Below are positions 2,517 through 63,001 of a stretch of 64,000 nt of DNA, piece after piece. The DNA comes from Branchinecta lynchi (Eukaryota; Arthropoda; Branchiopoda; Anostraca; Branchinectidae): positions 10,994,363 through 11,058,362 of the forward strand of contig JAKZAP010000014.1 in the NCBI GenBank assembly GCA_023053575.1, in the 5' to 3' direction. The position numbers were made by a program, and so were the translations under genes. The number at the start of each line of letters is the position of its first letter. The stretch's first letter is position 1. Under the pieces are notes generated by a model. It was given only the letters and a program-made list of their open reading frames with translations. It made no database searches and was not told the origin of the DNA.

Positions 2517-2817
2517 CAAAGTTGACATTGTGACTACGTATATTTGAGCACATGAGCGGGAGATATACCTTCGATATTATTTTGACTAAACTTCGTGTAT
2601 CGCATAAGCACAGACTCGAACGAATTGATGAAAGGACAAACGAGGCGAGCATGTTACGTCTTGCTAATTCGAGGCTCATTCATTCATGCATTACGTCGGT
2701 GTCGACAGAGCAGCAGTTGGAAATCACATCTTGACCTCCCCCCCCCCGCCTCCTTCCACTCTCCCGCATTCTGATTGGTTCCCGACTGTCTCATGGCACA
2801 TGGAAGTTATGGATTTG

Positions 2818-3046
2818 TATTTGACGTTGCAAAACGGATAAGTCAGCTACATTTTATTTGAGCTATATTTCGGCCCTTCGTAGCAAGGGTCCTCTTTAGG
2901 CTCAAGCTGGAAAATGAACTTCCAAAATATTTCCGAAATATAACTCTAATAAAATGTAGCTGACTTATCCGTTTTGCAACGTCAAATATGATTCGCAGTC
3001 AGCTTGGGCATATGATTCGCAGTCAGCTTGGGCTGAAGGAATATCT
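2818..3046 (-). mobile_element. Family B fold-back element, copy 1, next to a DDX20 acceptor
   Basis: Inverted arms of about 40 bp (TATTTGACGTTGCAAAACGG ... its complement ending at 2988) surround a core, and an extra tail (GATTCGCAGTCAGCTTGGGC, repeated twice) follows on the right only. Imperfect target duplications GTTATGGATTTG (2806-2817) and GTTACTGATTTG (3047-3058) flank it. On the minus strand the hammerhead core is damaged (CTAAAGA in place of CTGANGA). Confidence 0.75.
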
Positions 3047-3063
3047 GTTACTGATTTGACTAG

Positions 3064-3239: not shown

Positions 3240-6200
3240 GTAAGTTCTTAGGAATACGTTAAACTTCGTCTGTTGATAACGGCGAGAAATAGCAACTGTG
3301 CCAGGAATTAGGATTTCATGCTTCAGAAAGGTTTCAGGGCTTCTAAATAAACAGGCCCCTGTGACTAACTTAATGACTATAGAGGCTCGTCCACTTACCT
3401 TGTCAGGCGTGTCAATAGGAAATTTGTTTTAAAAAAAATTAACGTGACTAAATGAATGATTTTTATTTGTAACCTGTCACACGATCACAGGTCACAAGAC
3501 GAGTATAAACTATCGGGCATAAACTCATCGGCACATCGGGTTCTTTTTATACGCAAGAAATGAAATACTGCAAAAATTTGTCGGGCAAAACACTGAAGAA
3601 ATCGAATTCGGCATGCTTTTGTCGTGCCTCAGTATTCTCGTCGGCACATCGGGTTCTTTTCATACATAAGGAATCCAGAAGAAATAATTTTGTTATGCTT
3701 TTAGAGACCCGACCAAACTAACTTGGAAATAGTCACTGGGGGGGGGGGGGGAGGGGGACCGGAAATCGTATGAAACTCTCAGAGTGGAGCGATCGGGATG
3801 AAACTTGGTGGGAAGAATAAGCACAAGGTCTAGATACACCACTGACAGAACTGGACCGGATCCGGACACTATGGGGGGAGTTGGAGGGGGTTTCCGGAAT
3901 TCCGGCGATCCGTAGTTAATGTACTTCCAGGTAGACTAGGACAACAAAACTTGGCAGGCATATCAGGGACCTGGCCAGATTAACTTGGAAACAGTCACTT
4001 GTCCGATCCGACCATCGCGGGGGGAGGGGGAGGTGGCAGAATCCGGAAAATAGGGGCATGCATAACTTTCGAACGGGTGATCAGATCTTAATGAAACTTG
4101 ATATTTGGACATAACTCGTGTCTCAGATGTCCCATTTCAAGTCCGGACCGGATCTGATGAATCTGGGGGGGAGGGGAGGCGGAGGGGGACCGGAAATCGG
4201 ATGAAACTCTCAGAGTGGAGCGATCGGGATGAAACTTGGTGAGAAGAACAAGCACAAGCTCCAGATACATCACTGACAGAAATGGACCGGATCCGGACAC
4301 TATGGGGGGATTTGGGGGGGGGGCGGAATTCCGGCGATCCTTAGTTAATGTACTTCCGGGTGGACTAGGACAACAAAACTTGGCAGGCATACCAGGGACC
4401 CGGCCAGATTAACTTGGAAACAGTCACTTGTCCGATGCCACCATCGTGGTGGGAGTGGGACCCGGCGGAATCCGGAAATTAGTGGCATGTATAACTTTCG
4501 AACGGGTTTCCGGATCTTAAATGAAACTAAATATTCTTTGAGCCCAAGCTGACTTTGAAACATTTATTCAAACAATGTTTACAACGGATACGTCAGCCTG
4601 ACGAGGACCCTTGCCAAGAAGGGCCGAAATATCGCTGATGAAAAATCATAGCTGACGTATCCGTTGTAAACATTGTTTGATTAAATGAAACTTGATATTT
4701 TGAAAGATCTCATGTCTCAGATGTCCCATTTCAATTCAGGATCGGGTCCGATAAACTGGGGGGGGGGGGTCGGAGGTGAGAACCGGAAATCTTGTGACAC
4801 GCATAGACTTGAGCGATCAGGATGAAACTTGGTGGGAAGTACAGGCACAAGTCCTAGGTGCATCAGTGACAGAATCGGACCGAATTCGGGTACCGAGGGG
4901 GGGGTGGGGAGCTGTATGGGGGTGTCCGGAATTCCGGTGGTCGTGAGTTAAGGTACTTCCAGATGTGCTAGGACGATTTGCTGGAGCATTAAAAACTTGA
5001 CATCATTGGGTTAGACATCGTTACTTCTCCGATCCTACCATCCCTTAAAGAACTCATCTTACCCGCAAAGTGCAAACAATACGTTAAGCAAAATTTACTT
5101 TTTCACGATCGCCATGAGCACACGATTCTTTTTCACTCAAGAGTTTTGCTTAGAAATTAATTTTTACCACCCTTAAAGTGCACATGTTAACCGAAAAGTG
5201 AAAGAAAAAAAATTGACATTAATTCCATCCTCTGACCCAGCCTTGCAAGTTTGGTGCATCTTAACCGAAAAGTGAAAAAAATACTTTTGACCATCACTTC
5301 CATCTGACTCTTGCAAGTGCCATATGAGATTCCAGCTCTTGTTTAATTTTTGACACTAAACTACAAATACATCAAACAAGCACTTCGGAGAATAACAATT
5401 CGTACATTCAATGCTTGTTATTAATTTTACTTTAACGACAGCAACTACGCACCTACGTTGGCTGTAGTGTTCACAGTACTGATTAACTTGGGAGTCTCTT
5501 TATTCTCAGGCATTGAACAGTACGTCCAGGTCTTCCCGGAAACTGACTTTGCTGCAAAACTACAAAAAATGAAGCACGAAAGCCTACTCAAGCTCCTAGA
5601 AAACGTTGAGTTCACTCAGTGCATGGTCTTCACAAACTATCAGACTAGGTAAGAGAATCTATCGTACATGTTAAGTCAGATAAAAATGTGACGGACTAAC
5701 CCTATTATTGTTTTTGTTCTTGTTTTTCAAAGTATTGCACTGTGGAGTGTAAACGGTAAGTTTAAAATTTAAGTAACTGATCGAGCAAGAGCACTAGAGA
5801 TTTGCACATATTTGTTCTTTTTCTATGTCTGTACTCCGCAGTCCCTTTGTGAGCAGGCAAAAATAAATATATGTATAGCCGGTAAGGTAGAGGTTTAAAA
5901 CAAATACGTCTTAACCCCGTCCTATTTCGACAGTATCATGTTATCTGTGAAGCATGTGCCAAGTGTATCGATTCTTGTCGAAGGGTCGACTTTTTCTGGT
6001 ATGGATATTTCGGACGAAATTAGGACAAAAATTCATGTTTGACGCAATTAAGGTTCCGCCCAAAACAGTTCGTCTTATTCTTTTTTGCTCCTAGGGCCGA
6101 GTCTATCGCCAGTCATCTTACGTCCAAAGGCTGGCCCGCCCGATCTCTCTCAGCGCATATGGATCAAACCTCTCGACTCCAGACCCTGGCATGTCTGCAA

Positions 6201-9200
6201 CAGATGAAGTGTCGGATAGTCGTTTGTACAGATCTGGCTGCCAGAGGGATCGACGCCGAGAATGTGGACTTGGTGGTGAACGTAGATGTTGCCATAGATC
6301 CGTCGACGTACTTGCATAGGATTGGCCGAGCTGGAAGGTAAGTTTTAAGCCGAAACTGCGGCAGAAACAGTCACACCTTGCTAAAGTTCTGGAACACAAA
6401 GCGAAAACTGGAAAATCAGTCCCCTACTTCTTCTCCTATTTCACCGAAAAAGCTGTTGTTGATTTTAGTCATTGCACGTATAGTCGTATTCTCGCCGTTC
6501 CCCGAGGACTCTACATGAGGAGTCCCGGTGGTTTTTTTTGTCCGGGACTCACTCCACGTATTCTCGGGAGTCCCCAAGGACCGGGAATGCTCCGATTATC
6601 ATCACCATCATCAAAAAGGATTCCTTTGCATATTCAGAGGGGAAATCAGAATAAACAAAACCAAAAAGTGGATCCAGAATACGCCTTATGGCGCCTTTAT
6701 AGAGCCGCGCAGTCAAAATTTATCCACGATTTTTGCAAGTTCCGTAAATCAGCGGGAATTTTGCTGGACCAAGACAAGAATTTTTATGTTGAGGTGCAAA
6801 TAACTTCAGCGACCCCGATCTCACTATGAGCCGTCTGTACAAAAACTTGCATACAAATATCGCCATCCGTCAGGAGCTATTGAGGTCACAGATAGATGGA
6901 CAGACTTCGATCGGAGGCTTCGACGAACGGACAGATCTGCGATTTATATGTGAATAAACGAATGTATTTCATTTGACCCACTATATTTGAGGTAGCCAAA
7001 AAAAGCATAGTATTGAAAGAGAAAGAGACAAAACAAAAAGAAAAAGAAACACTATTCTAACAAGCGCGTAAGCATAGAAGGGTGAATCCGAATCCGGATT
7101 CGGATTCAGATCCAGGATTCGTCCTTTTCGCCGGATTCGCTTCTGCTTGTCGGGCTGTATTCGGGTTCGGACTTGGATTTCAAACCTCGAATCTTACGAA
7201 TCCGCTCCAATTCCTATATGTTCACTGTGCTTAAGTTATTATGCTTAACGAGCCCCAAATTCATTCCTGGTTGCCAACGGTTGCCAACGAGCACACATGA
7301 AAACCTAGAAATACATCGTCCAACTAACTGTCGCAATTGCCTTAGGCCTCACTGCTTTTTCGTCAACTCTAATTTTTAAACCGTTATCCATGCGGTTCAC
7401 ATGATTTGATTTTTATGAAAGTCGGATTCGGATCAATATTTTGAATCCTCAGCGTCAAATTGTGGATTCGTAATGGGATTCATACCTAGCCCTAGATCCG
7501 CTTCGGATTCGAATCTTTCATGATCGGATTCGCCCATCTCTGGCTGTAAGCTCATATGGCACTTGCAACGGAAGGTAGCGTGCAAATCAGCTAAGGCTCA
7601 TGTTGTCAAGGTCGTAACTATATGTCTCATCCCATACTGTACTGCAACTCCTCCGAAGCATATGATAGTCATTCAAGTTCCGTCCAGAAATCTCCACCCA
7701 AAGAGGTGTGACAAGATTCCCCCCCCCCCCCCCACCACCACCACCACTTTAACCCTCCTCAAAGTGTCCGAGTCCTCTCTCGACCTGTGACTGAACAATA
7801 GGGCATGTGACCTCACAAGAGTTATCCTCTACGAGTTCCAGAAAAGCGAGCGAAGCTTCAAGCCTTACCGCACCATACAGCGAGTTTTCTTTGCTAAAAA
7901 CGGGAATAACGACCAAGCCGATTTTGGACCGCCATGTAGCCTATGGATTGGCAGCGCTCTGTCTTTCACCAGCCAGCGAGTTTCTAGTCAGGGGTGGTAC
8001 TTCACTTACCAAAGACTTGTTTTTTGCTTTTTTTATACTTAAAAATTATAATCTCCATTATAATTTTGTATAAACTATATAAACTCTTTAAACTATTTTG
8101 ATCAGTTTCCAGTTGCAAATCAAAATATCTTTTTTCTTTATTTATCAGTTGGCCTGCTATATTTCTTACTAAACCTTATTTTCATTAATAATTTGTTAAT
8201 TTGTTCATTAATCAATCAATCAATATATTTAATTCATGACATTATACGTCACATAAATAAAAGAACTGGACACTATAGCCTATATACACATTAACCATCT
8301 GGCAGTTCAGAGCAGTAGCATAGTCTGCGGTACAGACGATAAAACTGCCCGGAACGACAATCCTCATTCTGGTGAACAGCCTGCAGGAGTGGGTTTCGAG
8401 TCCGATCAAGGCGCGTTACAAAATTAACCAGCGCTTTCCGCCTCATAATATTAAACGACTCTATCTCATTATCTAAAACATCTGGCTAGCAGAGTAACGT
8501 CGATTATACGAAAACAACTGTCGGAACGCGCTATTGAAACAAACTTTCAGCTTACTCAATGTCGATTCCAGGTAATTATCAAACAGTGGAAGACAGTACA
8601 ACTGCGTACAATATGTTTTAAATAAAAGAATCTTCACTGGGTGACTACAACATTTAAAATTACGGATCAAATGGTTTGCACGCAGGCAAAGGACATGGCT
8701 GAATCATCGTAAAGATCATCATCTAAAACATATCCTAGATACTTGACTTTGTGAACTTGAGTTAAAACAATACCGCCAAGCCGTATAGCAGGGAATATCA
8801 ATTTAAAATATTTCGGAATAAAAATCATATAATTACATTTGGCATCGGCTCTAATAAAATGTAGCTGACTTATCCATTTTGCATCGTCAAAAAAATAAAA
8901 TAATTTGTATATTTTTTCTTTGTTATCTGCAAACCCGTAAATCATCACAGCTACAAATATAAACTCCATCCATCCTCAATTGCTACAAACTATCTCCTAC
9001 AGACACACAACCACGATAACTACAAATAGCCTACTTTTCAAAACTTAAAATTCAAACTTCAATATTTAAATTATAACCTATATTATAAATTATAATTTAA
9101 AAAAAAATTTACTTCCTTTATTTTTTTTTATTTGTCAGCAATTAATTTTAAAGTCCATGGGCCAAACCAGGGTGTTTTAACTGATGGAATTGTTCCGTAG

Positions 9201-12700: not shown

Positions 12701-12784
12701 CGAAAACCCTCCTTATGCACCCACGTTAATGGGCGCCAAAATGTCCCCCTCTCTACTCGACCTTGGAGGTAGGCTATATCAGCA

Positions 12785-12905
12785 CAAGCTGTCTGCGAAT
12801 AATGCTTGTCGCTGACTAAACGGATTGGTCAGCTGAAACTTTATTAGGCGGTATTTCGGCGCTTCTGGGCAGGGGCCCTGTTTAAGTGGTGAATTCTGAC
12901 TTGTT
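12785..12905 (-). mobile_element. Degenerate family B element
   Basis: It keeps TGTCTGCGAATAATGC, GCTGACTAAACGGAT and, on the minus strand, GGGCCCCTGCCCAGAAGCGC then CGAAATACC, the stem II/GAAA part of the hammerhead. The CTGANGA block is lost. Confidence 0.5.
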
Positions 12906-17249: not shown

Positions 17250-18150
17250 CTCTGTGGCGGTGAAAACAGCTGATTTTCGAAAATTTCGCCTGCGGCGCGA
17301 CGTTTCAACATTGTTCTATCAGGTTCTGTGCAAAAATCTCCTTATCTTAAAAAGAAACAATTTTTTGTATTTTTTTAGTGGCTTGTGGAGTAAGGTTTGC
17401 AAGCAAAGCGGCTTTGTAAGTAGCCTACTGTATGACGAGACTGATGATTGCACTATTTTCTTGTAGTCACTACCACGTACCAACTTCCGGGAAAATATCC
17501 CACTCCTTTTCCGAGTTATCGGGTACGGACAGACATGTGATACCCTATGTAGCCTTTAACTTTTTCGTAAAACTTCACCTGTGCCGTCTTACATAGTAGC
17601 CTACTCGCTATCTGGTTGAATGGCCCGTAATTTGGTGAGGAATTAGGCCTAAGATTTCAGCCACATTAAAAGCTAGAAATGCCAGAAAAAGGTCGGATTA
17701 CAAAAAAATCGCATGCGGCGCTGAGTTTAAATTTGTCTTGGTACATACAGTAAAAGCTGCTGCTTGGGATCTGAGCTACGTTAAAGCCAGAGTCTGTGGG
17801 GAATTAGTCGAATATTGCCGGATAAAGAGCGATTTAACAAATAAGATGTTCCTTCGGCCCAAGCTGACTGCGAATCATATTTGACGGTGCGAAACGGATA
17901 AGTCAGCTACATTTAAAATGTAGCTGACTTATCTGTTTTGCACCGTCAAATATGATTTAACAAAGTTTTGCCTGCGGCTCTTTCGTAGTCCTACCCTGTT
18001 TCTATTTAGCTTAACATTTATGTGCGGTTTTAAAAGGTAGAAGTTGTAAAGGAGTAGTTGAATTTGCTCGGATTTAAAAAATTTCGCCTGCGGCGCTCAC
18101 TTTAGTTTGTCTTGAGTAGTAGATCTCAGAAGCTGGTACCGAAGCTTGTC
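17250..18150 (+). repeat. Family G repeats with TTCGCCTGCGGCGCTCACT
   Basis: Four copies of the hairpin motif CGCC-TGC-GGCG or close variants (near 17287, 17712, 17972, 18081), each preceded by A/T-rich AAAATTT. Units also share ATTAAAAGCTAGAA and TTTGTCTTGGTA segments. A second cluster is at 26310-26720. Confidence 0.55.
17842..17953 (-). mobile_element. Short family B element with 11-bp target duplication
   Basis: GATTTAACAAA at 17831-17841 and 17954-17964 flank it. The two arms (ATTTGACGGTGCGAAACGG and complement) meet almost directly, so the ribozyme core is deleted. The left tail GGCCCAAGCTGACTGCGAAT is present on one side only. Confidence 0.75.
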
Positions 18151-19540: not shown

Positions 19541-22500
19541 GTGAGTAGAAACGGTTATTTTTTAATTGCGGTACCCCCCCCCCCCTCGCCTTGTTTCCCG
19601 ACATCAATGGCCGGAATTCAGGGCTGAAAATGGTATCCGGAATTCCGAATACCCTTTCATCGCACAGAAAAGTTCTAAAAGCATAATGAGAAGTGCAATA
19701 ATCCTCCGGGGCTGGAGCCTCGTACCAAACGCTTCAAGGAGTACCAATCCTCTGTTTTCTGCCGGTGCGCGGAAGCTCAAGTAATGCGAAGTACACGTCC
19801 TTTTGGTGTCTGTTAGAGGTAGCAGCAATAGCATAAGACCGATGGAAAAAGCTATATTCGCAAAACTATTTTCGGAATAGACGCCATCTAAATAAATTTG
19901 GTTCTTCTGACGTTAGACGCAGATGAACGTCGCTAAACCAAGTGTCGGGCGACGATTCAAATACAACATTGAGTCTGTTCTACCCTACGAAGGGGAAAAA
20001 GCGGACAAGATCAAATTCGATTTCCGGGTCAAAGTCTATTTACATAAGATCAAACTCTATTTACTTAATCAAAATATATTTACTTTGCAAAATAAAATTA
20101 TATTTATTTAACCAAAATATAGGCTATTGACTTACCAAAAATTTATTGAACACATTTTTTTTTTTTTTCCATAGTCTGTAAATGCAAATACGTAACTATT
20201 AGTTACTATTTCGTTCCAACCTCGTGAAAACCAACCTTCTCAAAATATTAAATATTTGCTTACCATGCTCGGTAGCTCAGTTAGCGTGGTAACTACAGTC
20301 TCTGTGATGTAATTGGCCCGATCAGCCCGCGACACATTATTTTGACGAAAATAGAAAATGCGTTCAAACTTTGACGCCAAGAACCCATGATTCGTGGCTT
20401 CATGCGTAGTAACTACGTTCAGTAGGGAGGAACACGCTCATGCTGTCCACTCCCATCACAGTTCGAAGGCCAACGACGCAGCCACCGGTTATCGACGACG
20501 CGGTAGTGCTGTCTGCAAATCATTCGTCGAATGTTTGCATCGATGCCTGATCCGACTTTTTGGGATCCCAAAACGTAAGTGGAGGGATACCTATGACATC
20601 GCAAAAGTTGTCCGTCTGTCCGTCCGTCCGTCCGTCCGTCCGTCCGTCTGTCCGTCCGTCCGTCCGTCCGTCCGTCCGTCCGTCCGTCCGTCCGTCCGTC
20701 CGTCCGTCCGTCCGTCCGTCCGTCCGTCCGTCCGTCCGTCCGTCTGTCCGTCCGTCTGTAAGCACGATAACTCTCGAAGGGAATGAGATATTTTGATGAA
20801 ACTTGGTGTGAGGGTTCGTTGGGTCGTCGGACCAGTCAAGTTCGTAGATGGGCTTTGTAGCTCTACATTTAGGGGTGGGGGAGGGGATTCAAATTAAGGG
20901 ACAAACAAAATATTTTGAAACAGCTAATGTGATAGTCGATTATGGGGTAAGAAGACATGCTGAACACGATGGTGAAAACCATTTTGTCATCGGACAAGTA
21001 GTTCGCCCGGAATCCGGCCAAAACCGGAAAGTTTGTTGAAAATAAAAGTTTTATTTGAAGTTGATTAGATGTTCGAATTAGGGGTAGGAAGACATGCTGA
21101 AGACGATGGTGAAAACTATTTTCTCGATGGACAAGTATTTCGACCGGAATCCGGCCCAAACCGGAAAGTTTGTTGAAAGTAAAAGTTTTATTTGAAGTTG
21201 ATTGAATGTTCGATTTAGAGGTAGGGAGATACGATGGTGAAAACTATTTTCTCGACGGACAAGTATTTCGACCGGAATCCGGCCCAAACCGGAAAGTTTG
21301 TTGAAATTAAAAGTTTTATTTGAAATTGATTAGATGTTCGATTTAGGGGTAGGAAGACATGCTGAAGACGATGGTGAAAACTATTTTCTCGATGGACAAG
21401 TATTTCGACCGGAATCCGGCCCAAACCGGAAAGTTTGTTGAAAGTGAAAGTTTTATTTGAAGTTGATTGAATGTTCGATTTAGAGGTAGGGAGACATGCT
21501 GAAGACGATGGTGAAAACTATTTTCTCGACGGACAAGTATTTCGACCGGAATCCGGCCCAAACCGGAAAGTTTGTCAAAATCAAAAGTTTTATTTGGAGT
21601 TGATTAGATGTTCGATTTAGGGCAAGAAGACATAATGAACACTTATGTGAAAACAAGTTTCTACCCGGACATGTAGTTCGTCCGGAATCCGGCCAAAACC
21701 GGAAAACTGTTGGAAGTCAAAGTTTTATTTCTAGTTGATTAGATAAGCGATTTAGGGGTAAGAAGAGATGCTGAGTCCCTGTGTGACAATCGTATTTTAC
21801 CCGGACATATAGTTCGACCGGAATCCGGCTGGAATCGGAAAATTTGTTATAAGCTAAATTTCTATTTGAAGTTGATTAGATGTTCATTACTGGGGAAAGA
21901 AGATACCCTGATTTCGTCTTTGAGCTTTCTTTTTTCGGCCGAATCCGGCCCAAACCGGAAAGTTTGTTGAAATTAAAAGTTTTATTTGAAATTGATTAGA
22001 TGTTCGATTTAGGGGTAGGAAGACATGCTGAAGACGATGGTGAAAACTATTTTCTCGATGGACAAGTATTTCGACCGGAATCCGGCCCAAACCGGAAAGT
22101 TTGTTGAAAGTAAAAGTTTTATTTGAAGTTGATTGAATGTTCGATTTAGAGGTAGGGAGACATGCTGAAGACGATGGTGAAAACTATTTTCTCGACGGAC
22201 AAGTATTTCGACCGGAATCCGGCCCAAACCGGAAAGTTTGTCAAAATCAAAAGTTTTATTTGGAGTTGATTAGATGTTCGATTTAGGGCAAGAAGACATA
22301 ATGAACACTTATGTGAAAACAAGTTTCTACCCGGACATGTAGTTCGTCCGGAATCCGGCCAAAACCGGAAAACTGTTGGAAGTCAAAGTTTTATTTCTAG
22401 TTGATTAGATAAGCGATTTAGGGGTAAGAAGAGATGCTGAGTCCCTGTGTGACAATCGTATTTTACCCGGACATATTGTTTGACCGGAATCCGGCTGGAA

Positions 22501-25500
22501 TCGGAAAATTTGTTATAAGCTAAATTTCTATTTGAAGTTGATTAGATGTTCATTACTGGGGAAAGAAGATACCCTGATTTCGTCTTTGAGCTTTCTTTTT
22601 TCGCCGGACAAGTAGTTCTGGAGTTCGGCCGGAACCGGGAAATTGGCAGAAGTGGCAGGAAGTTTTCGTCAAAACAGATATGACTTATAGGGGTAAACAC
22701 ACATGCTGAATCCAAATCTGAACTTGGTTTTCTCAGGTGATTAGCTATTTGGCCTTAATCTGTTTCTGAATTTTAATTGTAAAAATGTTCAAGGAGTCTG
22801 GCGAAGACTGGATCTGGCTAAGACAAGACCCAGTTGTCTGGATCAAATCTTAGATTTTTGGGATCCCATCGACACCTTTGGTCTTGTTTCTTTTTTTATT
22901 ATTTTACTTCTATCTAACGAATTCGACGATTAAACTATAAGAAGAATTCCATAACATCGAAAATTACGGTAGCCTACAGAGAATTCTTTTCCGAATTTGC
23001 AAACGACATTGTCCTAAAAACAATTCATCTTAAAATACTTCCGAAGCAATCAATGAACATTAATGTGAACCTTATCTAGCTACAGTGGCGCTACAGATAA
23101 TTACCATATTTAACAAGACCAAAGGTTTCGATGGGATCCCAAAAATTCAATATCTGATCCAGACAACTGGGTCGTGTCTTAGCCAGATCCAGTCTTCGCC
23201 AGACTCCTTGAACATTTTTACAATTAAAATTCAGAAACAGATTAAGGCCAAATAGCTAATCACCTGAGAAAACCAAGTTGAGATTTGGATTCAGCATGCG
23301 TGTTTACCCCTATAAGTCATATCTGTTTTGACGAAAACTTCCTGCCACTTCTGCCAATTTCCCGGTTCCGGCCGAACTCCAGAACTACTTGTCCGGCGAA
23401 AAAAGAAAGCTCAAAGACGAAATCAGGGTATCTTCTTTCCCCAGTAATTAACATCTAATCAACTTCAAATAGAAATTTAGCTTATAACAAATTTCCGATT
23501 CAAGCCGGATTCCGGTCGAACTATATGTCCGGGTAAAATATGATTGTCATACAGGGACTCAGCATCTCTTCTTACCCCTAAATCGCTTATCTAATCAACT
23601 AGAAATAAAAGTTTGACTTCCAACAGATTTCCGGTTTTGGCCGGATTCCGGACGAACTACATGTCCCGGTAGAAAATTGTTTTCACATAAGTGTTCAGCA
23701 TGTCTTCTTGCCCTAAATCGAACATTTACTCAACTCCAAATAAAACTTTTTATTTTGACAAACTTTCCGGTTTGGGCCGGATTCCGGTCGAAATACTTGT
23801 CCGTCGAGAAAATAGTTTTCACCATCGTCTTCAGCATGTCTTCCTACCTCTAAATCGAACATCTAATCAACTTCAAATAAAACTTTTACTTTCAACAAAC
23901 TTTCCGGTTTTGGCCGGATTCCGGGCGAACTACTTGTCCGATGACACAATAGTTTTCACCATCGTGTTCAGCATGTTTTCTTACCCCATAATCGACTATC
24001 ACATTAGCTGTTTCAAAATATTTTGTTTGTCCCTTAATTTGAATCCCCTCCCCCACCCCTAAATGTAGAGCTACAAAGCCCATCTACGAACTTGACTGGT
24101 CCGACGACCCAACGAACCCTCACACCAAGTTTTATCAAAATATCTCGTTCCCTTCGAGAGTTATCGTGCTTACAGACGGACGGACGGACGGACAGACAGA
24201 CAACTTTTGCGATGTCATAGGTATCCCTCCACTTACGTTTTGGGATCCCAAAAACTGGTTTTAACTTTATTGTCTTTTCATAGCTTCTAATAGTAGATCA
24301 TCACAACGTTTATTGTCGCTATATTTGACTCAAGCAATTTAAACGGCAGAGGAACTTCCCAACAATTAAATGAAACATACGGCTCGTATGTTTCATGTCC
24401 TTTGTCCTCTTTATGAATCTGAAAGAATTTAAAACACGCGAATACAATTTTAATACTTGGTAATTTGTCAGCGTTACTCGAGCAGAATCTCTTCCGTAAT
24501 GTCTTCACATTTTCCTATTTAAGCTTTTCTATTAAGAATACTTAGTCTTATCTTTGTTTAAGTCTCTAATTTCTAGGAATCGATCCGAACACGTCGATTG
24601 ACGTATCTGGGAATGTCCGATATCTCCACGAAGTTTCATGGAAACCGATTCTTGAGACGATGAGCAAAGGGACAGGAACTGTCACAGCTAACTCGCACGT
24701 CCAGCGTAAGTCGAACATGATATATTTTACTGACAAAATACGACAAAATATCCACAGAAAAAGAAGAACGAATCGCATAACCAAAAGTAAATATAATCTT
24801 TACGTTACATTACATATGTTTCACTGCTACTGTACGGTGGCTTTTTGGGGCCATAGTTCGAACCTACATTGAGGTAGCGTTCCAGCAACTTATTATTAGT
24901 TACGATCGTTACTATTCTTGTTATTATTGCCGTTCCAGAGCCCGCCGTAATAAGTAAATTGGCTCCTCCCACTTATTATTTTCGTGCCACGACTGTTACG
25001 ATCGTTACAATTTACTTATGATGGTCGCGAGCATCATAAGTGATAATGACTATCAGTTCTGCAGGAACTCCCGTAACTCCGCGTTGTTATTATTTTCGTT
25101 CCAGAGAGCGTGGTAACCACGACAATACGGCGCTCGCCCCTGCTCTTATCATCGTAACTTGTAATAACTTCACTGGAACGCTACCTGAGCGTTGAGATTT
25201 ATTAAAGTTTAACTGAATACTGCTGAGACCGAGTCCAGGGACGGATCCAGAGGGGGGGCGAGGGGGGCGATAGCCCCCCCCCCCTAGACGGGCTGTAATT
25301 TTTTGTTTTTTTTTACTGCACTTACGGAAGTCTGCATTAACGCATGTTCTAACTACTGTAACTAGACTCTAAAATCTTTTTACAAGTGGAGCCAGGAGCT
25401 TGAATTTTTCTTGTAAACAGTTGTCAGTTGATCAAGTACAGTTTTTACCATTATTGTAATGTATGAAAACCACATTTTCGTTAAATAAGAGACCGACAGG

Positions 25501-28411
25501 GACAAATAAAAAGCGAAAAAAAATCGGCCTTGTGGCCGACAAAAAGGACACTACCCCCACTCTTTTCGGTAAGAATCGCCCCCCTAGAACGGAAGGCTAG
25601 ATCCGCCCCTGAGACCGACGTCTGTTTATACATAACCTTTTCACTTAAATAGGCCGGAAAACCCGATAAAAATGTTTTACTTCGTTTTTCTTTAGGGGAT
25701 TCGGTAGTTATACAGAATCCTAAATAGGCTATCTGTACAAATCTCTTTGGTATAAAAATCGGGATCCGGCCGGTATTCGGTAGTTATCACGAATTTGGTG
25801 AGAGAATTTACTGAAATAATTTGGTAATTTTTCGATGCCGGAACTATTCAGTATATTTATGGAGATTCCGTAGTTACACAGAATCTCGAATAAGCTATTG
25901 GTTCGAAATTATTCGGTATCATGATGGGAATTCGGTAATTTGTTCAGTATAATTTCCAGGATTAGGAAGTTAACCAGGAATCCTGACTTTGTTCCAGTTT
26001 CGACGAAAGTATACCGAATATGAATATTGTCCGGTAGTCTTTCGATACCAAAACAATTCGGTATAATAACCGGGATACGGTAGTTATACAGAATCCCGAA
26101 TATGCTATCGGTCTAACTTATTCGGTATAATAACTGGGATTCGGTAACTTATTCATTATAATTGCCAAGATTCGGAAGTTACCACGAACCTCGAAACTCA
26201 GAAGAGGTCGAGTGAAGCACTGGTCGCAGACAAAAGGGGTGATCTGTGATATCATCGATAGTCCTTATTTTTATTTTGGATCCCAAAAAGAATATCTAAT
26301 CATAAATATTTCGAAAATTCCGCCTGCAGCACTTTTCGTAATATTCTCTATTTTGTGGAAGGGCGCGTCATTTGACGGGGGGTTTAAGTCAGTTTTAGGA
26401 TTGAGATTTCGAAACATTAAAAGCTAGAATTTGGATGGAAATTAAATTTGGCAGGAAAAAGCCAAACAAAAATTCGCCTGCGGCGCTCACTGTATGTAAT
26501 TATAGGTAGTATATTCACTAGACTACAGTTGCTGCTGCTGCCGGAACGTCGCTCCACCCAGTTTCTGGAACTTCATAGAGTCTCAGTATTTAATCAAAGG
26601 TAAATGATACAAATCTGTAAGAGAAGCAGTTAAATTTTAGCCTAAAAAAAAAAAAAAAAATTGATTTCGAAAATTTTCGCCTGCTGCGCTCGATTTAATT
26701 ATCTATTGGCTATAATAGATAGTAGCTGTTACTGCAATCATGTTCGGCAATATATTTTCCATGTGGGCTTCGCCAAAACGTCGCCTAATAGTTGGCTTAT
26801 CGTCGTTCATGCTGCCTTTTATTGTTACTCTTCCTACGTAATCCTTTCTGTTTCACAATTTTAAGCTCGAGTTCTTAGTTCTAGGATTCGGTAAAATTTT
26901 TGAGAGATTGGGTAAAATTTTGGCTCTGCATTCCCCCCCCCCCACCGAAAATGCACTTGCGACGCGGAGTAAAGAGAGCAACGAAAAACAACACAAGATA
27001 ACTTACAGTATAAACACAAACAATTTAGACATAATTTCTAAGTGGGCCTGAAAAGTTCATGAAAAAAATCACGTACTCGATAACCAGGATGACGAGATGT
27101 ACATAGTAGTGACGCTGACGTTTTCTCATTAATAAGTAGGATCAGTTGAAATCTTGAGAGGCCGGATATAACAAGACCAAAGATTTCGATGGGATCCCAA
27201 AAATTCAATACCTAATCCAGACTTGAACATTTTTACAATTAAAATTCAGAAACAGATTAAGGTCAAATAGCTAATAATCTGAGAAAACCATGTTCAGATA
27301 TGGATTCAGCATGTGTGTTTACCCCTATAAGTCACATCTGTTTTGACGAAAACTTCTTGCCACTTCTGCCAATATCCCGGTTTCGGCCTCCAGAACTACT
27401 TGTCCGGCGAAAAAAGAAAGCTGAAAATTGAACTCCGGGTATATTCTTTCCCCAATATTGAACATCTAATCAACTTCAAATAAAAATTTAACTTATAACA
27501 AATTTTCCGACTCAGCCGGATTCATGTCTTCTTGTCCTACACCGAACATCTAATCAACTAAATAAAACTTTTAATTTTAACAAACTTTCCGGTTTGGGCC
27601 GGATTCCGGGCGAACTACTTGTCCGTCGAGAAAATAGTTTTCATCGTCGTCTTCTGCATGTCTTCCTACCCCTAAATCGAACATCTAATCAACTTCAAAT
27701 AAAACTTTTACTTTTAACAAACTTTCCGGTTTTGGCCGGATTCCGGGCGAACTACTTGTCCGATGACAAAATGGTTTTCACCATCATGCTCAGCATGTCT
27801 TCTTACCCCATAATCGACTATCACATTAGCTGTTTCAAAATCTTTTGTTTGCCCCTTAATTTGAACCCCCTCCCCCACCCCTAAATGTAGGGCTACAAAG
27901 CCCATCTACGAACTCGACTGGTCCGACGACCCAACGAATCCTCACACCAAGTTTCATCAAAACATCTCATTCCCTTCGAGAGTTATCGTGCTTACAGACG
28001 GACGGACAGACGGACAACTTTTGCGATGTCATAGGTATCCCTCCACTTACGTTTTGGGATCCCAAAAATTAAAGTAAGCAAATGCAAAAATACGGGCTGA
28101 TTGTCTCAGTATTGCAGCTAGAAAAGATGTCTCTGCTTACCGAGGAAAACTTCGCTTTGAAGTAAATGTGACTGCTGTAACAATAGCACTATCGGCTATT
28201 CAAAGTAAGGGAATGCTGATTGCTTCACCGACTGATTCATCCCTTCATTTCAGAGGAAGGGCTTATCTGTGACTGCCATTTAGCGTGGCTCATCCGAAAC
28301 CCAGACTTATTAGCACATCTGCGAAGTGCTATCTGCAGCCGTGATGGAAGCAGATTCGGCGGACTTCCATTATCTGATATTCCAACTGATGGAATGGATT
28401 ACTGCGTTTAA
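18781..28411 (+). CDS. Secreted LRR protein, Oplophorus-luciferin 2-monooxygenase non-catalytic subunit-like (3 exons, 5' exon missing)
   Basis: Exons 18781-19540, 24577-24705 and 28254-28411 join in phase to 348 residues plus stop. The N-terminal part has a Cys cluster (GCPDPATIYPCQCT ... LYCSG), then several leucine-rich repeats (TLEL-like strands such as LDMLDLSSNDIYRL), then a C-terminal LRR cap (LICDCHLAWLIRNPDLL ... DYC). This layout is that of the LRR subunit of Oplophorus shrimp luciferase and its many crustacean relatives, which are secreted proteins of mostly unknown role; the luciferase catalytic subunit is a separate protein. The first exon starts in phase 0 with hydrophobic residues, so a signal-peptide exon should lie upstream; I could not identify it. 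The introns (5.0 and 3.5 kb) are filled with repeats. The luciferase connection is by homology only and does not imply light production. Confidence 0.8.
20185..20440 (+). repeat. Family C interspersed repeat, copy 2
   Basis: Same block order as 2195-2516: AACTATTAGTTACTATT, CGTTCCAACCTCGTGAA, GTGGTAACTAC and GCGTAGTAACTACGTTCAGT. It lies inside LRR-gene intron 1. Confidence 0.6.
20557..22892 (-). mobile_element. Family A element, copy 2, full length, minus
   Basis: On + it starts TTTTTGGGATCCCAAAACG and ends CACCTTTGGTCTTGTT, the complement of the family's two ends. It contains the (GTCC)n tract, then about a dozen ~137 bp units. A 666-bp segment is duplicated in tandem (21299-21941 and 21967-22607). 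It is the longest copy here. Confidence 0.75.
20608..20758 (+). repeat. (GTCC)n microsatellite inside family A
   Basis: About 37 tetranucleotide units, nearly pure with a few GTCT variants. In other family A copies this position has only 2-8 units, so the tract expanded in this copy. Confidence 0.9.
23109..24255 (+). mobile_element. Family A element, copy 3, full length, plus
   Basis: Starts AACAAGACCAAAGGTTTCG and ends GTTTTGGGATCCCAAAAA, with about five units and GGACGGACGGACGGACAG between. It lies 216 bp from copy 2 in opposite orientation, in the same intron. Confidence 0.75.
24577..24705 (+). CDS. LRR protein exon: last LRR segment
   Basis: The acceptor is TCTAATTTCTAG ending at 24576 and the donor is GTAAGT at 24706. 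It encodes GIDPNTSIDVSGN and HEVSWKPILETMSKGTGTV, the stretch that precedes the CDC cap in this family. Phases (1 in, 1 out) agree on both sides. Confidence 0.8.
24868..25193. mobile_element. MITE with AGGTAGCGTTCCAG ends
   Basis: AGGTAGCGTTCCAG (24873-24886) is inverted at about 25173-25190. The interior is rich in TTATTATT and GTTACGATCGTTAC palindromes. A terminal fragment (CTTGTAATAACATTCTGGAA) occurs near 32340. Confidence 0.6.
25236..25611. mobile_element. hAT-type MITE
   Basis: Ends CAGGGACGGATCCAGAGG and, inverted, CAGGGGCGGATCTAGC are the widely seen hAT terminal CAGGGGCGGATCYAG. AGACCGAGTC (25226) and AGACCGACGTC (25612) look like a diverged target duplication. G- and C-tracts lie just inside. 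Confidence 0.65.
25690..26200 (+). repeat. Family H degenerate tandem array (GGGATTCGGTAGTTAT)
   Basis: About six units of roughly 75 bp with GATTCGGTAGTTATACAGAA, TCCCGAATAGGCTAT and TTATTCGGTATAATAAC in fixed order. Confidence 0.55.
26310..26720 (+). repeat. Family G repeats, second cluster
   Basis: Three copies of CGCCTGCGGCGCTCACT or variants (near 26327, 26466, 26677), with ATTAAAAGCTAGAA before the second, as at 17668. An isolated GGATCCCAAAAAG near 26279 resembles the family A end. Confidence 0.5.
27168..28069 (+). mobile_element. Family A element, copy 4
   Basis: Starts AACAAGACCAAAGATTTCG and ends GTTTTGGGATCCCAAAAATT, with about four units. It lies in LRR-gene intron 2, 185 bp before the last exon. 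Confidence 0.75.
28254..28411 (+). CDS. LRR protein terminal exon: C-terminal cysteine cap
   Basis: The acceptor is CCCTTCATTTCAG ending at 28253. It encodes EGLICDCHLAWLIRNPDLL and ends DYCV before a TAA at 28409-28411. The CDC...C...C spacing is an LRR C-terminal cap with two probable disulfides. Confidence 0.85.
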
Positions 28412-42514: not shown

Positions 42515-42602
42515 TCATTGGTCAGCTGAATTTTATCTAGTAACATTCAGCTAACATATCCATTTTACACTATTTAATATGATTGGCAGTCAGCTTGTGC
42601 TT
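42515..42602 (+). mobile_element. Family B half element, degenerate
   Basis: CAGCTAACATATCCATTTTA and TATGATTGGCAGTCAGCTTG match the right arm and tail of family B. The core is not recognisable. Confidence 0.45.
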
Positions 42603-43359
42603 TTGAATTTGTAGGGGTCCTGTCTAAATTTGTCCAAGCTGGTTTTGTTTTTACTTTTAACATACGAATCTAGCTTTAAAAACACAACTGCACTTTCATT
42701 CAAAAATTTGTTCATACCAATGATAGAAGGACCTGAGATGGTACTGTTACGTCAGCCTGTCTTAGCACCTGTAGGCTATATATATATTTTCTTGTGTAAC
42801 CCAGTTACCGCTAGCCAATGCCACTACTTATCTGTTCATTTAACTCTCTCTCTCAAACAAACTAACATCAAATTTCTAAAATTTCATGAATCCAAGATGG
42901 CTGATCCATAGTGCTATGTGATGTGAGTATGAGAAAGTCTGAGATTGTTTCATTGGATGTCAAATCAGGACCACAGATCAATAATCTTTTGAACAGTTTT
43001 GCTTTTTTTGTTCTGTTTCTTTTGCACCTCCAGTTGCAGCCAGGGTATGGCAGCTACTGCATCACCAATGATTCTTCAGAGTATCCCGACGAAAGGAGAA
43101 CTAGGCTTTCAAATTAGCCTATCTCTATTGTACCCAAATCACTCCGTGTTTTGCCATTTAGATTTGTTGAAGGAGGGAAATTATCTGCCTGTATTTTTTT
43201 TTGCATTTTTAACACTAAATTACTACACAGAATTTAATATTATTTACACAGTACTCTGCACTCAAAATTATTTCAAGGTTCGAACCAGAGAATGGTTTAA
43301 AAGAGCAATAGGCAATAGCTGAATATCTTGGCAATGCCAGTAGTCTTGATAAAGGGATA

Positions 43360-54407: not shown

Positions 54408-54840
54408 CCCTTCAGCCCGAACTGACTGTGAATCATATTTGATGTTGGCAAACGGTTAAGTCGGCTGCGATTCAGATCGCTGGTTCGTTTTTCTGGTGTA
54501 GCTTATTATGCGCGGCCCCTGACTTTTTTTTTGACTTCATGAAAGAAATGGAGAAATTCGATTAAATTAATGCTGCGGAATATATATTTGTATCTATATA
54601 TGTAGAGCCGAGCGGCCAGAGACGCGCCGTTTATATTTATAAAACCGTTCAAGGGACGACCAGTTCCGTTAGTAAATGGAAAATATAGACTTCTGGTGTG
54701 ACTTCACGGGCCACGCATAATAGGCTGAGGTATAGACGACACCCTTTTTCTAGCTAGAGCCGGAAGAGGACCTTGTCAATAAGAGCCGAAGTATCACAAG
54801 AATAAATCTCATCTGACTTAATTGTTTAGCGCCATCCGAT
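54408..54840 (+). mobile_element. Family B element, degenerate and long
   Basis: The left arm ACTGACTGTGAATCATATTT and a decayed right arm enclose, on +, AGAGCCGGAAGAGGACCTTG then AAGAGCCGAAGTATC (54756-54795). This is the hammerhead block with the core changed (CGGAAGA, GAAG). Confidence 0.5.
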
Positions 54841-55176: not shown

Positions 55177-55415
55177 TTTGTATCTGTGGGGACCCAGTCA
55201 AGACTAAGCGATTTGAAGGCAGTCTTAATGCCCAGGTTGGTTTTGGTAAGGACATCCTGGCATTGTTTTGCAGCAATCAGTCGTTCTTGATAATACGATG
55301 CCTGTTTACTAAATTTTTCCTACGTTTTGAGTTTAATATTAAAGGGATAAACTTGTAGATCTTTCAACAAGCTGTTTGGCGATTCACAAGCTTCAAGAGC
55401 CGGGAGCGTTTAACT

Positions 55416-55615
55416 AGAAATTCCTTCGACTGCGAATCATATTTTGAAGGTACAAAACGAATAAGTCAGCTACATTTTATTTATAGCTGTATTTCGGCCC
55501 TTCTTGGCAAGGGTCCTCTTCAGGCTCAAGCTGGAAAATGAACTTCGCCAAGAAGGGCAGAAATATAACTCTAATAAAATGTAGCTGACTTATTCGTTTT
55601 GCACCGTCAAATATA
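55416..55615 (-). mobile_element. Family B element with perfect 11-bp target duplication
   Basis: AGCGTTTAACT at 55405-55415 and 55616-55626 flank it. On the minus strand the core reads CTGAAGA, GGACCCTTGCCAAGAAGGGCC, GAAA, but the following base pattern (TACA) lacks the U of the cleavage site, so the ribozyme is probably inactive. Confidence 0.8.
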
Positions 55616-58957: not shown

Positions 58958-59029
58958 GTTCCAACTAGTCGGCCACTGTAAGAAATTTCGTAAAGGAAAT
59001 CCCGTGCTGCCGAATAGTTGGCTACGAGA
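58958..59029 (+). repeat. Family I fragment (CCAACTAGT units)
   Basis: TTTGTTTGTGTTCCAACTAG and TAAGAAATTTCG, GGAAATCCCG match the start of the array at 62236. Family A copy 7 begins directly after it. Confidence 0.6.
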
Positions 59030-60137
59030 ACAAGACCAAAGGTTTCGATGGGATCCCAAAAATTCAATATCTGATCCAGACAACTGGGTCTTGTCTTAGC
59101 CAGATCCAGTCATCGCCAGACTCCTTGAACATTTTTACAATTAAAATTCAGAAACAGATTAAGGCCAAATAGCTAGTCCTCTGAGAAAACCAAGTTCAGA
59201 TATGGATTCAGCATGTGTGTTTACCCCTATAAGTCATATCTGTTTTGACGAAAACTTCCTGCCACTTCTGCCAATTTCCTGGTTTTGGCCGAACTCCAGA
59301 ACTACTTGTCCGGCGAAAAAAAAAGCTCAAAAACGAACTCAGGGTATCTTCTTTCCCCAATAATGAACATCTAATCAACTTCAAATAAAAATTTAACTTA
59401 TAAAAGAATTTCCGACTCCAGCCGGATTCCGGTCGAACTATATTTCCGGGTAAAATATGATTGTCAAACACGGATTCAGCGTCTCTTCTTACCCTTAAGT
59501 CGGTGATCTAATCAACTAGAAATAAAACTTAAGCTTCTAACAATTTTCCAGTTTTGGCCGGATTCGGGGGGAACTAACTGTCCAGGTAGAAAAATTGTTC
59601 ACATAAGTATTCAGCATGTCTTCTTGCCCTAGATCGAACATCTAATCAACTCCAAATAAAACTTTTAATTTTAACAAACTTTCCGGTTTGGGCCGGATTC
59701 CGGGCGAACTGGTTTTCACCATCGTCCTCAGCATGTCTTCCTACCCCTAAATCAAACATTCAATCAACTTCAAATAAAACTTTTACTTTTAACAAACTTT
59801 CCGGTTTTGGCCGGATACCGGGCGAACTACTTGTCGGATGACAAAATGGTTTTCACCATCGTGTTCAGCATGTCGTCTTACTCCAGAATCGACTATCAAA
59901 TTAGCTGTTTCAAAATATTTTGTTTGCCCTTTAATTTGAACCCCCTCCCCCACCCCTAAATGTAGGGCTACAAAACCCATCTACTAACTTGACTGGTCCA
60001 GTGACCCAACGAATCCTCACACCAAGTTTCATCAAAATATCTCATTCCCTTTTAGAGTTATCGTGCTTACAGACGGACGGACAACTTTTGCGATGTCATA
60101 GGTATCCCTCCACTTACGTTTTGGGATCCCAAAAAGA
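59030..60137 (+). mobile_element. Family A element, copy 7
   Basis: Starts AACAAGACCAAAGGTTTCG and ends GTTTTGGGATCCCAAAAAG, with about six units. Only two GGAC units remain before the end. Confidence 0.75.
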
Positions 60138-60348
60138 GGCGGGTTTTCCGACGAGACTGAAGTTGCGTTTTTTTTCGGGTGTAGTTTAACTGCAGTTTTG
60201 AGATACTTTTGTTTATAAAAGTACGGTGTACCCTTTTATTTGTCCATTCGAAACACTGTACATAACTAGAGCAACAGTATGTCAGATTACAGTGAAACTA
60301 CATCGACAAACTGCAACTTATAAGTGTTGCACAGACGAAACAAACTTT
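60138..60348. other. Short unique stretch between family A copies
   Basis: No coding or repeat signal recognised. Confidence 0.4.
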
Positions 60349-61383
60349 CGGCCAAAGGTTTTGATGGGATCCCAAAAATGTAATATTTGATCCAGACAAT
60401 TGAGAACGAACTACCATACTTGTCCAGAAAAACAAGACCAAGGTGTCGATGGGATCCCAAAAATCTAATATGTGATTCAGACAATCGAGTCTTGTCTTCG
60501 CCAGATCCAGTCTTGGACAGGCTAATCATCAGAGAAAACCAAGTTCGGATATACCTCTATAAGCCATATCTATTTTGACGATACTGACCGAGACTTCCTG
60601 CCGATTTCCGAGCGAACTACTAGTCCAGCAGAAAAAAAAATACAGAAACAAAACCAGCGTATCTCTTTATCCCTATAAAGAACATCTAATCAACTTTGAA
60701 TAAAAGTTTGACTTAAAAAAAATCCGGTTTCAACCGGATTCCGGAATAATTATATGTCCGGGTAAAAAAACCATTGTCATAAACCGACTCAGCCTCTCTT
60801 CTTACCCCTTAATCTGTCATCTAATCGAAGTTTTGATTTTAACAAATTTTCCGGTTTTGGCCGGATTCCGGGCGAACTAGTTGTCCAGCGAGAAAATGAT
60901 TTTCACTATCGTGTTCGGCATGTCTTTTTACCCATAATTCAAACATTTAATCAACTTCAGATTAAACTTTTACTTTTAACCAACTTTCCGGTTTTCGCCA
61001 GATTCCGAATTCCGGGCGAACTACATGTCCGGGTAGAAAATTGTTCTGACGTAAGTGTTCAACATGTCTTCTTGCCTTAAATCGAACATCTAATCAATTC
61101 GAAATAAACTTCTAATTTTAACAAACTTTCCGGTTTCGGCCGGATTCCTGGCGAACTACTTGTCCGTCGAGAAAATGGTTTTCACCATCGTCTTCAGCAT
61201 GTCTTCCTACCCCCAAATCGAACATCTAACATCTTGGGTCCGACGACCCAACGAATCCTCACACAAGTTTCATCAAAATATCTCATTCCCTTCGAGAGTT
61301 ATCGAGCTTACAGACGGACGGACAGACGGACAACTTTTGCGATGTCATAGGTATCCCTCCACTTACGTTTTTGGATCCCAAAA
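60349..61383 (+). mobile_element. Family A element, copy 8, with a duplicated header
   Basis: A header piece (CCAAAGGTTTTGATGGGATC) at 60351 is followed by a complete header at 60433 (AACAAGACCAAGGTGTCG), units, and the end GTTTTTGGATCCCAAAAAAG. Confidence 0.7.
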
Positions 61384-62235
61384 AAGGTCAGAAACGAATC
61401 CAGCGTATCACCTTATCCGTATAAAGAACATCTAATCAACTTCAAGTAAAAGTTCAACTTATAAAAAAAAAATCCGGATTCCAAACGAACTGTAAGTCCA
61501 GGTAAAAAAAAAAAAGATTGTCATATCAGTATTGTCATTCAGCGTGTTTTCTTACCCCTAAATCTGTCATCTAATCAACTTCAAATAAAACTTTTGCTTT
61601 TAACAAATTTTCCGGTTTGGCCTGATTCCGGCCGGACAAGTTGTCCTGGTAGAAAATACTGTTCCCATAAGGGTTCACCATGTCTTCTTACCCCTTAATC
61701 GAACATCTAATCAACCTAAAACAAAACTTTTACTTTGAACAAACTTTCCGGTTTTGGCCGAATTCCGGGCGAACTACTTGCCCGTCGAGAAAATGGTTTT
61801 CACCATCGTGTTCAGCACGCCTTCTTATCCCTAAGTCGAACATCTAATCAACTTCAAACAAAACTTTTACTCTTAACAGACTTTCCGGTTTTGGCCGGAT
61901 TCCGGGCTAACTACTTGTCCGGCGAACAAATGTGTTTCACCATCATGTTCAGCATGTATTCTTATCCCTAAATCGTACATCTAATCAACCTTTCAACAAA
62001 CTTTCCGGTTTTGGCCGGATTCCGGGCGAACTAATTGTCCGATGACAAAATGGTTTTCACCATCGTGTTCAGCATGTTTTTTTACCCCATAATCGACTAT
62101 CACATTATATGTTTACAAATATTTCATTTGCTCCTTAAATTAAACCCCCTCCCCCACCCCTAAATGTAGGGCTACAGAGCCCATCTAGGAACTTGACCTT
62201 ACTCTTGACCCAAACAATCCTCACATAAAGTTTTT
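61384..62235 (+). mobile_element. Family A element, copy 9, both ends truncated
   Basis: It begins within a unit (AACGAATCCAGCGTATC) and carries about six units, then GGGCTACAGAGCCCATC ... CAATCCTCACATAAAG, and stops where the family I array begins. Confidence 0.65.
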
Positions 62236-63001
62236 GTTTGTGGTCCAACTAGTCCGCCAATGCAAGAAGTATAGGAAATCCCGCGTTGCCGACTAGTTGG
62301 CTAGGATCAGAAATCATATTGGAGAAAAGTTTGTAGCCTACTAGTTCGCTACTGTAAGAAATTTCGTATAGGTAATCCCATATTGCCAACTAGTTCGCTA
62401 CGACAATAAATCGTATAGGAGAAACTTTATATCCAACTAGTTGGCATACATAAGAAATTTCGTCAAGGAATGCAGAATTATCAAACTAATTTGCTGAAAT
62501 AATAAATTTTTTATAGAGACAAATTGAATAATCAATTAGATAGCTGTTAGTTTATTGCGGATAAGATAATATGGCGCATAGCCATCTAATAGGGAAAAAA
62601 TCTTTCTTAAGACTGAAAGCTTGAAACCGACTAGTTGGATATTTCGAAATTTCTATGTGAATTGACACAATCCGACTATCTCTGTACGAGTGAGAGACAT
62701 ACCCAACTAGCTGAATAAAAAGTTGTCTCCTAGACGATTTCTCGCCGTGAAATTTCTGCCGATCCAACTAGTTGACTAAAATAAGAAAATTCCTATAGAA
62801 ACGGGGGGTGATTATGCAACTAGTTGGCTAAAATAAATAAAAAATCCTGTAGGAACGAGGATGAATATTCAACTAGTTGGCTAAAATAAGATAACTCGTC
62901 AAGGAATTCAGAATTATCAAACTGATTCTCAAAAATGAGAAAATTTGTATAGAGACACACTGATTATCCAATTGGATGGCTGTTAGCTCATTGACTATTA
63001 G
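62236..63001 (+). repeat. Family I tandem array centred on CCAACTAGTTGG
   Basis: About thirteen units of 50-65 bp: CCAACTAGTTGGCTA then AAATAAGAAATTTCG and a GGAAAT-type spacer. The palindrome is best kept at 62440-62450, 62763, 62816 and 62870. Confidence 0.75.

Follow-up and report, generated by a model that had tools for sequence, protein, structure and literature searches.

A minimal hammerhead motif within a young, palindromic element family of Branchinecta lynchi

The motif and its element in a helicase intron

The window, i.e. the whole stretch of Branchinecta lynchi DNA that was analyzed, is 64,000 nucleotides long. It contains a helicase exon with a match to DEAD-box proteins, and an intron at approximately positions 3240–5509 (splice sites located by eye). 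Inside this intron and in sense orientation is copy A, a 152-bp non-autonomous retroelement flanked by perfect target-site duplications (Table 1). Positions 4591–4640 of the window are within copy A; the motif found there is part of a mobile element and not an isolated ribozyme of the helicase intron.

As read from the sequence and the family alignment, positions 4591–4640 display a minimal type I hammerhead on the + strand with all 11 invariant bases intact. The minimum free energy fold of positions 4585–4645 consists exactly of stems I and II (z = −3.48), and none of 200 shuffled sequences was equally stable. This agrees with a preliminary description of the DNA, which had pointed to an intact core with 7-bp stems I and II and to a fold-back around the motif; the fold-back arms are 97% complementary. 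Stem III is reduced to the self-complementary AUAU and no intramolecular stem III is possible. A bare AUAU/AUAU duplex is predicted to be unstable (+1.6 kcal/mol). The AUAU occupies columns 61–64 of the family alignment A3 and shows 93%–95% identity there. Since it recurs across the family, a dimeric mode of action is plausible.

Chance matches depend strongly on the descriptor used, which was narrowed only once the motif was known. A loose descriptor (5-bp stem I, stem II with 4 of 5 pairs) found matches in 45 of 500 dinucleotide-shuffled windows, or about 1 in 11. Strict descriptors were matched in 5 of 2000 shuffled windows (7/7 and 6/7 bp) and in 3 of 2000 (6/6 and 6/6 bp), and stems of the real lengths (7/7 and 7/7 bp) in none of 2000. 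The family copies described below are stronger evidence than the shuffles. By sequence and predicted fold, positions 4591–4640 represent a genuine minimal hammerhead motif, and one of an already known kind, i.e. minimal type I and helix-III-less.

Table 1. Positions of the hammerhead motif, of copy A and of other family members in the window (TSD, target-site duplication).
Feature	Positions	Strand	Remarks
Copy A	4529–4680	+	152-bp non-autonomous retroelement; 5′ head, arms, one sense hammerhead; from TSDs and genome copies
Copy A, 5′ TSD	4517–4528	+	TTAAATGAAACT, perfect 12 bp
Copy A, 5′ head	4529–4560	+	Non-palindromic; common to family copies
Copy A, left fold-back arm	4561–4597	+	Final 7 nt double as stem I 5′ strand
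Stem I	4591–4597 / 4634–4640	+	CGUCAGC / GCUGAUG; 7 bp, one G-U
Core (C3–A9)	4598–4604	+	CUGACGA; from sequence
Stem-loop II	4605–4625	+	From sequence and predicted fold
Stem II	4605–4612 / 4619–4625	+	GGACCCUU / AAGGGCC; 7 bp, bulged A4607
Loop II	4613–4618	+	GCCAAG
GAAA (G12–A15.1)	4626–4629	+
UAUC	4630–4633	+	H17 = C4633; predicted cleavage 3′ of C4633
Copy A, right fold-back arm	4651–4687	+	Final 7 nt extend into TSD
Copy A, 3′ TSD	4681–4692	+	TTAAATGAAACT, perfect 12 bp
Copy B	2817–3050 or 3065	−	Older subfamily, two inverted units; 5′ limit approximate; imperfect 12-nt TSD (10/12) by eye
Copy B, better unit	2854–2907	−	CUAAAGA (G5 to A); family model match
Copy F	8848–8892	+	Single arm; starts at GCTC of ribozyme 3′ strand
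Copy C	12779–12891		Decayed; ribozyme remnant 12840–12891 (−)
Copy S	17842–17953	+	Both ribozymes lost, head and arms kept; TSD GATTTAACAAA at 17831 and 17954
Copy G	42536–42606	−	Remnant of head and left arm
Copy D	54409–54836	+	Head 54409–54466 and damaged-core ribozyme unit 54753–54805, other sequence between
Copy E	55416–55615	+	Older subfamily; TSD AGCGTTTAACT at 55405 and 55616
Copy E, ribozymes	55478–55531; 55524–55577	−; +	Family model match; + strand unit degenerate

Rfam does not recognize the motif. Rfam 15 at gathering score gave no match in the window, its hammerhead models gave none in the motif region at E-values up to 10, and none was found among the 72 of 91239 genome candidates scored; 14 control genomes were silent too. 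This is presumably because the Rfam models expect stem III. The preliminary description had proposed a search with these models, with stem III relaxed if need be; the models were used unmodified, stem III unrelaxed, and taken literally the search speaks against the motif, which is nevertheless real on the other evidence. The exact 26-mer of the hairpin has no match in GTDB genomes and none in IMG/VR.

A model built from the family finds seven matches in the window at E < 0.01, and only the one at 4591–4640 is intact. The four other, damaged copies noticed at the outset are all real members of the family. Copies A, S and E have perfect target-site duplications of 11–12 bp. Copy B adjoins the helicase exon that ends near position 3240; by eye, its imperfect duplication apparently reaches coding sequence, and its head contains a 24-nt duplication. 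Copy F is enclosed by an open reading frame fragment (8667–8975, − strand) that by eye resembles a LINE-type reverse transcriptase. The approximately 280-bp insert in copy D (54467–54745) has apparent inverted ends of its own, also by eye. Elsewhere in the window, positions 22506–22888 and 23112–23494 form a 383-nt inverted repeat that is 98% complementary with a spacing of 223 nt, and no kinship of it to the hammerhead family was seen. Positions 1426–2078, 20873–24254, 27272–28076 and 59029–64000 are many-copy interspersed repeats with a periodicity of about 137 bp.

Full-length palindromes and the older subfamily

The exact 50-nt motif is present 56 times in the 576-Mb host genome; the reversed control pattern is absent. 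Copy A as a genome query gave at least 102 matches, with 40 of 369 candidate places scored, and copy E at least 83, with 40 of 2961 scored. Five more full-length copies are 96%–99% identical to copy A.

The full-length young element is approximately 210 bp long; it begins with a head of about 33 nt, and the rest is a palindrome (loci L026, L028 and L030). The palindrome arms are 88 nt in L030 and 87 nt in L026, free of mismatches and separated by one central base. Since a complete ribozyme unit makes up each arm, one hammerhead is read on each strand, the two being head to head. The central base completes stem I on one strand only. Among the 20 of the 56 exact-motif places that were sampled, 14 are full palindromes (arms of at least 85 nt, at most two mismatches); by eye the others are three 3′-shortened palindromes, two composites and one internally deleted copy. 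Both the 5′ head and the 3′ end are constant across the family. The GC content is 0.40, and at about 210 nt the full-length members are too short for reverse transcriptase and GIY-YIG open reading frames. This is a young and abundant element family formed as a near-perfect palindrome with one hammerhead per DNA strand. No report of a palindromic element with inverted hammerheads was found among the papers listed in the literature searched.

Thirty-three copies bounded by target-site duplications were classified by ribozyme orientation: 13 carry the ribozyme in sense only, five in antisense only and 15 in both. These places were picked for likeness to copy A (L001–L030) or for the exact motif (L123–L142), and ribozyme-less copies are therefore under-counted. 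Of the 15 elements with two units, eight have the base completing stem I in sense and seven in antisense. This near equality indicates that activity in sense is apparently not required. L027 represents the same place as L026 and was left out of the alignment and of the flank, end and orientation counts.

The sequence and length of copy A (152 = 210 − 58) suggest that a full-length copy lost 58 bp separating two CGTCAGC repeats, which would leave a single sense ribozyme with a complete stem I. Deletions in the opposite arm give copies with the ribozyme antisense to the head. L114 appears by eye to be an internal deletion of a head-bearing copy. Three further units, L002:1357–1409 (−), L017:2409–2462 (+) and L023:1818–1870 (+), have a stem I 5′ strand ending in GACAGC (GAGATC in L023); a spacer common to them (..CCCGAAGTTGAACCGGAAGATTGACAGC) is located upstream and marks a further subfamily.

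The family also includes an older subfamily. A 34-nt piece of its arm has 1002 exact matches in the genome, where the control has none. The sample analyzed comprises 60 places among the 100 listed of these 1002, all on two contigs (C1 and C2), and many of the 60 copies have a longer spacer between the arms. The older ribozyme reads (U)UGAGC CUGAAGA, the identical 21-nt hairpin, GAAAUAU A and GCUC. When the sequences of the two subfamilies are compared, none of 34 positions of core, hairpin and UA differ, as against 9 of 39 aligned positions (gaps excluded) of the 3′ flank (p = 0.003). A test limited to the 11 invariant positions gives p = 0.18. The remaining differences within the motif are confined to N7, H17 and stem I. 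In stem I a G-C pair is replaced by C-G, GC being found in 6 and CG in 23 of 43 distinct alignment rows.

That alignment holds 57 matches (43 distinct rows), with copy A in it twice (in the window and as L001). The motif is intact in 31 of the 57, many of them outside the window, which together with the exact genome copies bears out the earlier suggestion that the family carried the motif in general. Paired cells make up 84.2% of pair cells against 80.0 ± 0.9% in shuffles (reached by 0 of 500), and cells changed on both sides number 27 against 17.5 ± 2.9 (reached by 2 of 500). The covariation score of the 43 rows was reached by 0 of 500 shuffles. Relatedness of the copies inflates these positive measures, and the alignment had been built to fit the structure. 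No excess was seen in the number of pairs with changes on both sides (276 of 500 shuffles) or in further pair types (385 of 500), and the seven sequences of the window taken alone show no sign of double changes (148 of 500).

Copies of the older subfamily decay evenly. Invariant positions are changed in 41 of 660 cases and the rest of the motif in 127 of 1980, a count that excludes 5 of 65 matches with less than 75% identity. Purifying selection on individual copies was therefore rejected as a candidate (p = 0.93). Any selection would thus target source elements rather than individual insertions.

Insertion, folding and candidate explanations

Twenty-one of 24 elements with recognized ends share at least 9 nt between their flanks, compared to 1 of 200 mismatched flank pairs; the test leaves out 12 of 36 heads that have no recognized 3′ end. 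The length of the duplications varies from 9 to 14 bp. The duplications and the constant 3′ end suggest insertion by target-primed reverse transcription. Three elements among the 20 exact-motif places terminate with GAAATATCGCTGAT(G), where the ribozyme ends; their duplications measure 10, 13 and 15 nt. These ends, in L128, L140 and L141, are at the 3′ edge of the ribozyme and the duplications are complete, which indicates that reverse transcription there apparently started just 3′ of the ribozyme. This position may represent a second, internal start site.

Both sides of the predicted cleavage site are kept in 138 of 158 arms and in 167 of 178 units (places present in two loci are counted twice in the 158). 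Since the site is mostly spanned in integrated copies, the RNA that was copied was apparently uncleaved. The 20 of 158 arms without a core upstream were considered as 5′-truncated copies that would begin at the cleavage site and might thereby record cleavage in vivo. Copies that start at GCTC are found at window position 8848 and in L030 and L045, and L081 and L087 show a break at CTC within the join of two arms. In the composite L132, a single anecdotal case, CCGAAATATC is fused to an arm from a different copy, and the junction coincides exactly with the predicted cleavage site.

The predicted folding of the ribozyme depends on transcript length. In the growing transcript of copy A the hammerhead is the minimum free energy fold at the three lengths tested (4640–4656). 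A transcript that ends at 4633 has the 5′ strand paired to the core, and from about position 4660 on the arms displace stem I. The long hairpin at 4561–4690 has a predicted energy of −67.0 kcal/mol, as compared to −55.9 kcal/mol with stem I enforced (4561–4687), i.e. the hairpin is ahead by about 11 kcal/mol. The full-length palindrome gives a hairpin of −163.5 kcal/mol, and here the antisense half is transcribed first and is predicted to zip up the emerging ribozyme. With the ribozyme masked in the palindrome, any cleavage should come from derivatives like copy A or from dimers, or else be assisted by a protein. A simple consensus scan of copy A showed one A-box-like site inside the hairpin and no B box.

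The data are probably best explained by a real minimal type I hammerhead in a non-autonomous, palindromic retroelement family that is SINE-like in size and insertion mode. The full-length form would be a linear RNA of about 210 nt that inserts by target-primed reverse transcription, with a further, internal start directly 3′ of the ribozyme. Cleavage by the ribozyme would most likely be weak or dimeric, co-transcriptional or protein-assisted, and would act on the element RNA; its role would be in the RNA cycle of the element and not in the host gene. Another reading has the same anatomy, with the hammerhead inherited from a ribozyme-bearing ancestor, the hairpin kept as a binding or start site for reverse transcriptase and cleavage irrelevant. 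It merits serious consideration although we hold it to be the less probable; its likelihood is judged for the anatomy common to both readings, and the two assessments overlap. It would account for the identity of the 21-nt hairpin in both subfamilies, loop and bulge included, which goes beyond the needs of a hammerhead, for the near equal frequency of sense and antisense ribozymes, for insertions that begin at the ribozyme 3′ edge and for a ribozyme that is folded away in full-length RNA. However, the changes between the subfamilies spare every invariant position, are found at N7 and H17, which are free to vary, and restore pairing in stem I, none of which a hairpin site would need. We think it rather improbable that the family is a perfect-palindrome retroelement that presents a hammerhead on RNA of either polarity, with the ribozyme also serving as an internal start site of reverse transcription. 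The core sequence CUGACG has its reverse complement in CGUCAG, the 5′ strand of stem I, and the young palindrome may have been rebuilt by fold-back synthesis with its center in stem I. As a kind of safety catch, the palindrome would then keep the ribozyme silent in full-length RNA, and deletion derivatives such as copy A would release it.

By the features tested, the element is not a retrozyme of the published type, a Penelope-like element or a MITE. Its small size, GC content, duplications longer than 4 bp and type I hammerhead are as in animal retrozymes, but it is very unlikely that it is transcribed in tandem, with direct repeats that self-cleave and circularize and circles that are reverse transcribed. 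The 122 model matches (L090, which overlaps L089, being left out) include 7 same-strand and 26 opposite-strand pairs within 400 nt, and by eye the seven are neighboring or nested insertions or composites with no tandem repeat of the unit. The element ends are constant and not permuted, and two direct units were found in none of the 33 duplication-bounded elements (up to about 300 nt long). Of the dimeric hammerheads to which the motif had been likened initially, those of Penelope-like elements remain an apt comparison for the helix-III-less type, whereas those of retrozymes do not, as no direct tandem array was seen. No more credible is a DNA transposon remnant with terminal inverted repeats and an incidental ribozyme match: size and long inverted arms are as in a MITE, but the arms stop short of the 5′ end and leave about 33 nt of head beyond the palindrome, the duplications vary in length, and 3′-truncated copies have full duplications. 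We give least credence to an intronic ribozyme domesticated by the host, with the helicase pre-mRNA as its target. The preliminary description had raised such a role, and the intact core and the sense orientation in the intron agree with it; against it are the near-identical copies scattered over many contigs and the lack of extra conservation in the core of older-subfamily copies (see the decay counts above).

A Penelope-like enzyme is the leading guess for the partner that mobilizes the family, because of the parallel with the 3′-terminal fold of Terminons and because helix III is missing. The Pfam GIY-YIG model PF01541 has only two matches in the genome, both unconvincing as Penelope-like. 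This model may miss the Penelope-like subfamily. A 154-aa open reading frame at L144:1405–1869 (+) displays a GIY-YIG match and, by eye, a C-terminal zinc knuckle. L073 and L082 were considered as possible leads into an autonomous partner, but open reading frames of at least 80 aa in the longer stretches L121 and L122 show by eye no evident transposon protein.

Comparison with known hammerhead elements

Cervera and de la Pena in 2014 and Lunse et al. in 2017, as related in papers that cite them, reportedly described minimal type I hammerheads in Penelope-like elements and Terminons. The present family offers a tractable case of such a motif, as it comprises many near-identical natural forms, with the ribozyme masked on both strands, present in sense only, present in antisense only, or lost. 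This makes it possible to measure how an active ribozyme affects the spread of the element.

Published papers describe minimal type I hammerheads without helix III as dispersed by the thousand in animal genomes and as present in Penelope-like elements (PMC7761336; PMC6155905; PMC7229834), and the activity and role of minimal hammerheads in retrotransposons as “still a mystery” (PMC7761336). The motif reported here is like the Penelope-like and Terminon hammerheads in its core, in stems I and II, in the reduced or absent helix III and in a possible dimeric activity. In Terminons the hammerhead is described as the 3′-terminal fold (PMC6431247), and similarly 3 of the 20 exact-motif places end at the ribozyme. 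Unlike in these elements as so described, the family has no open reading frame and no pLTR, no direct tandem copies were seen, no Penelope-like protein was found for it in the searches above, and its two units are head to head in a palindrome.

With animal non-LTR retrozymes, as portrayed in PMC7229834, the family shares a small, non-coding retroelement form, a type I hammerhead, a GC content below 50% and target-site duplications longer than 4 bp. Retrozymes however are described there with direct tandem repeats, canonical hammerheads and circular RNAs, in contrast to the single unit and inverted ribozymes found here.

PAc, a Penelope-like element of Anolis, offers a parallel to the insertion data. 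According to PMC11167929, cleavage was not needed for its insertion in vitro, the RNA that was used was unprocessed, the start of reverse transcription is internal, and the ribozyme is protein-dependent in vitro. The copied RNA of the present family likewise appears to have been mostly uncleaved, and in three elements reverse transcription apparently began internally. Unlike the present element, PAc is autonomous and protein-coding, with its ribozyme at the junction of pLTR and open reading frame.

A hammerhead that is possible on either polarity is a likeness to viroid-like RNAs, as these are treated in PMC9608096 and PMC8781251. In the present case both polarities would stem from the DNA palindrome of a genomic retroelement, unlike those of the viroid-like RNAs. 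A palindrome with one ribozyme per strand would constitute a simple genomic route to both-polarity hammerheads, which are otherwise known from viroid-like RNAs.
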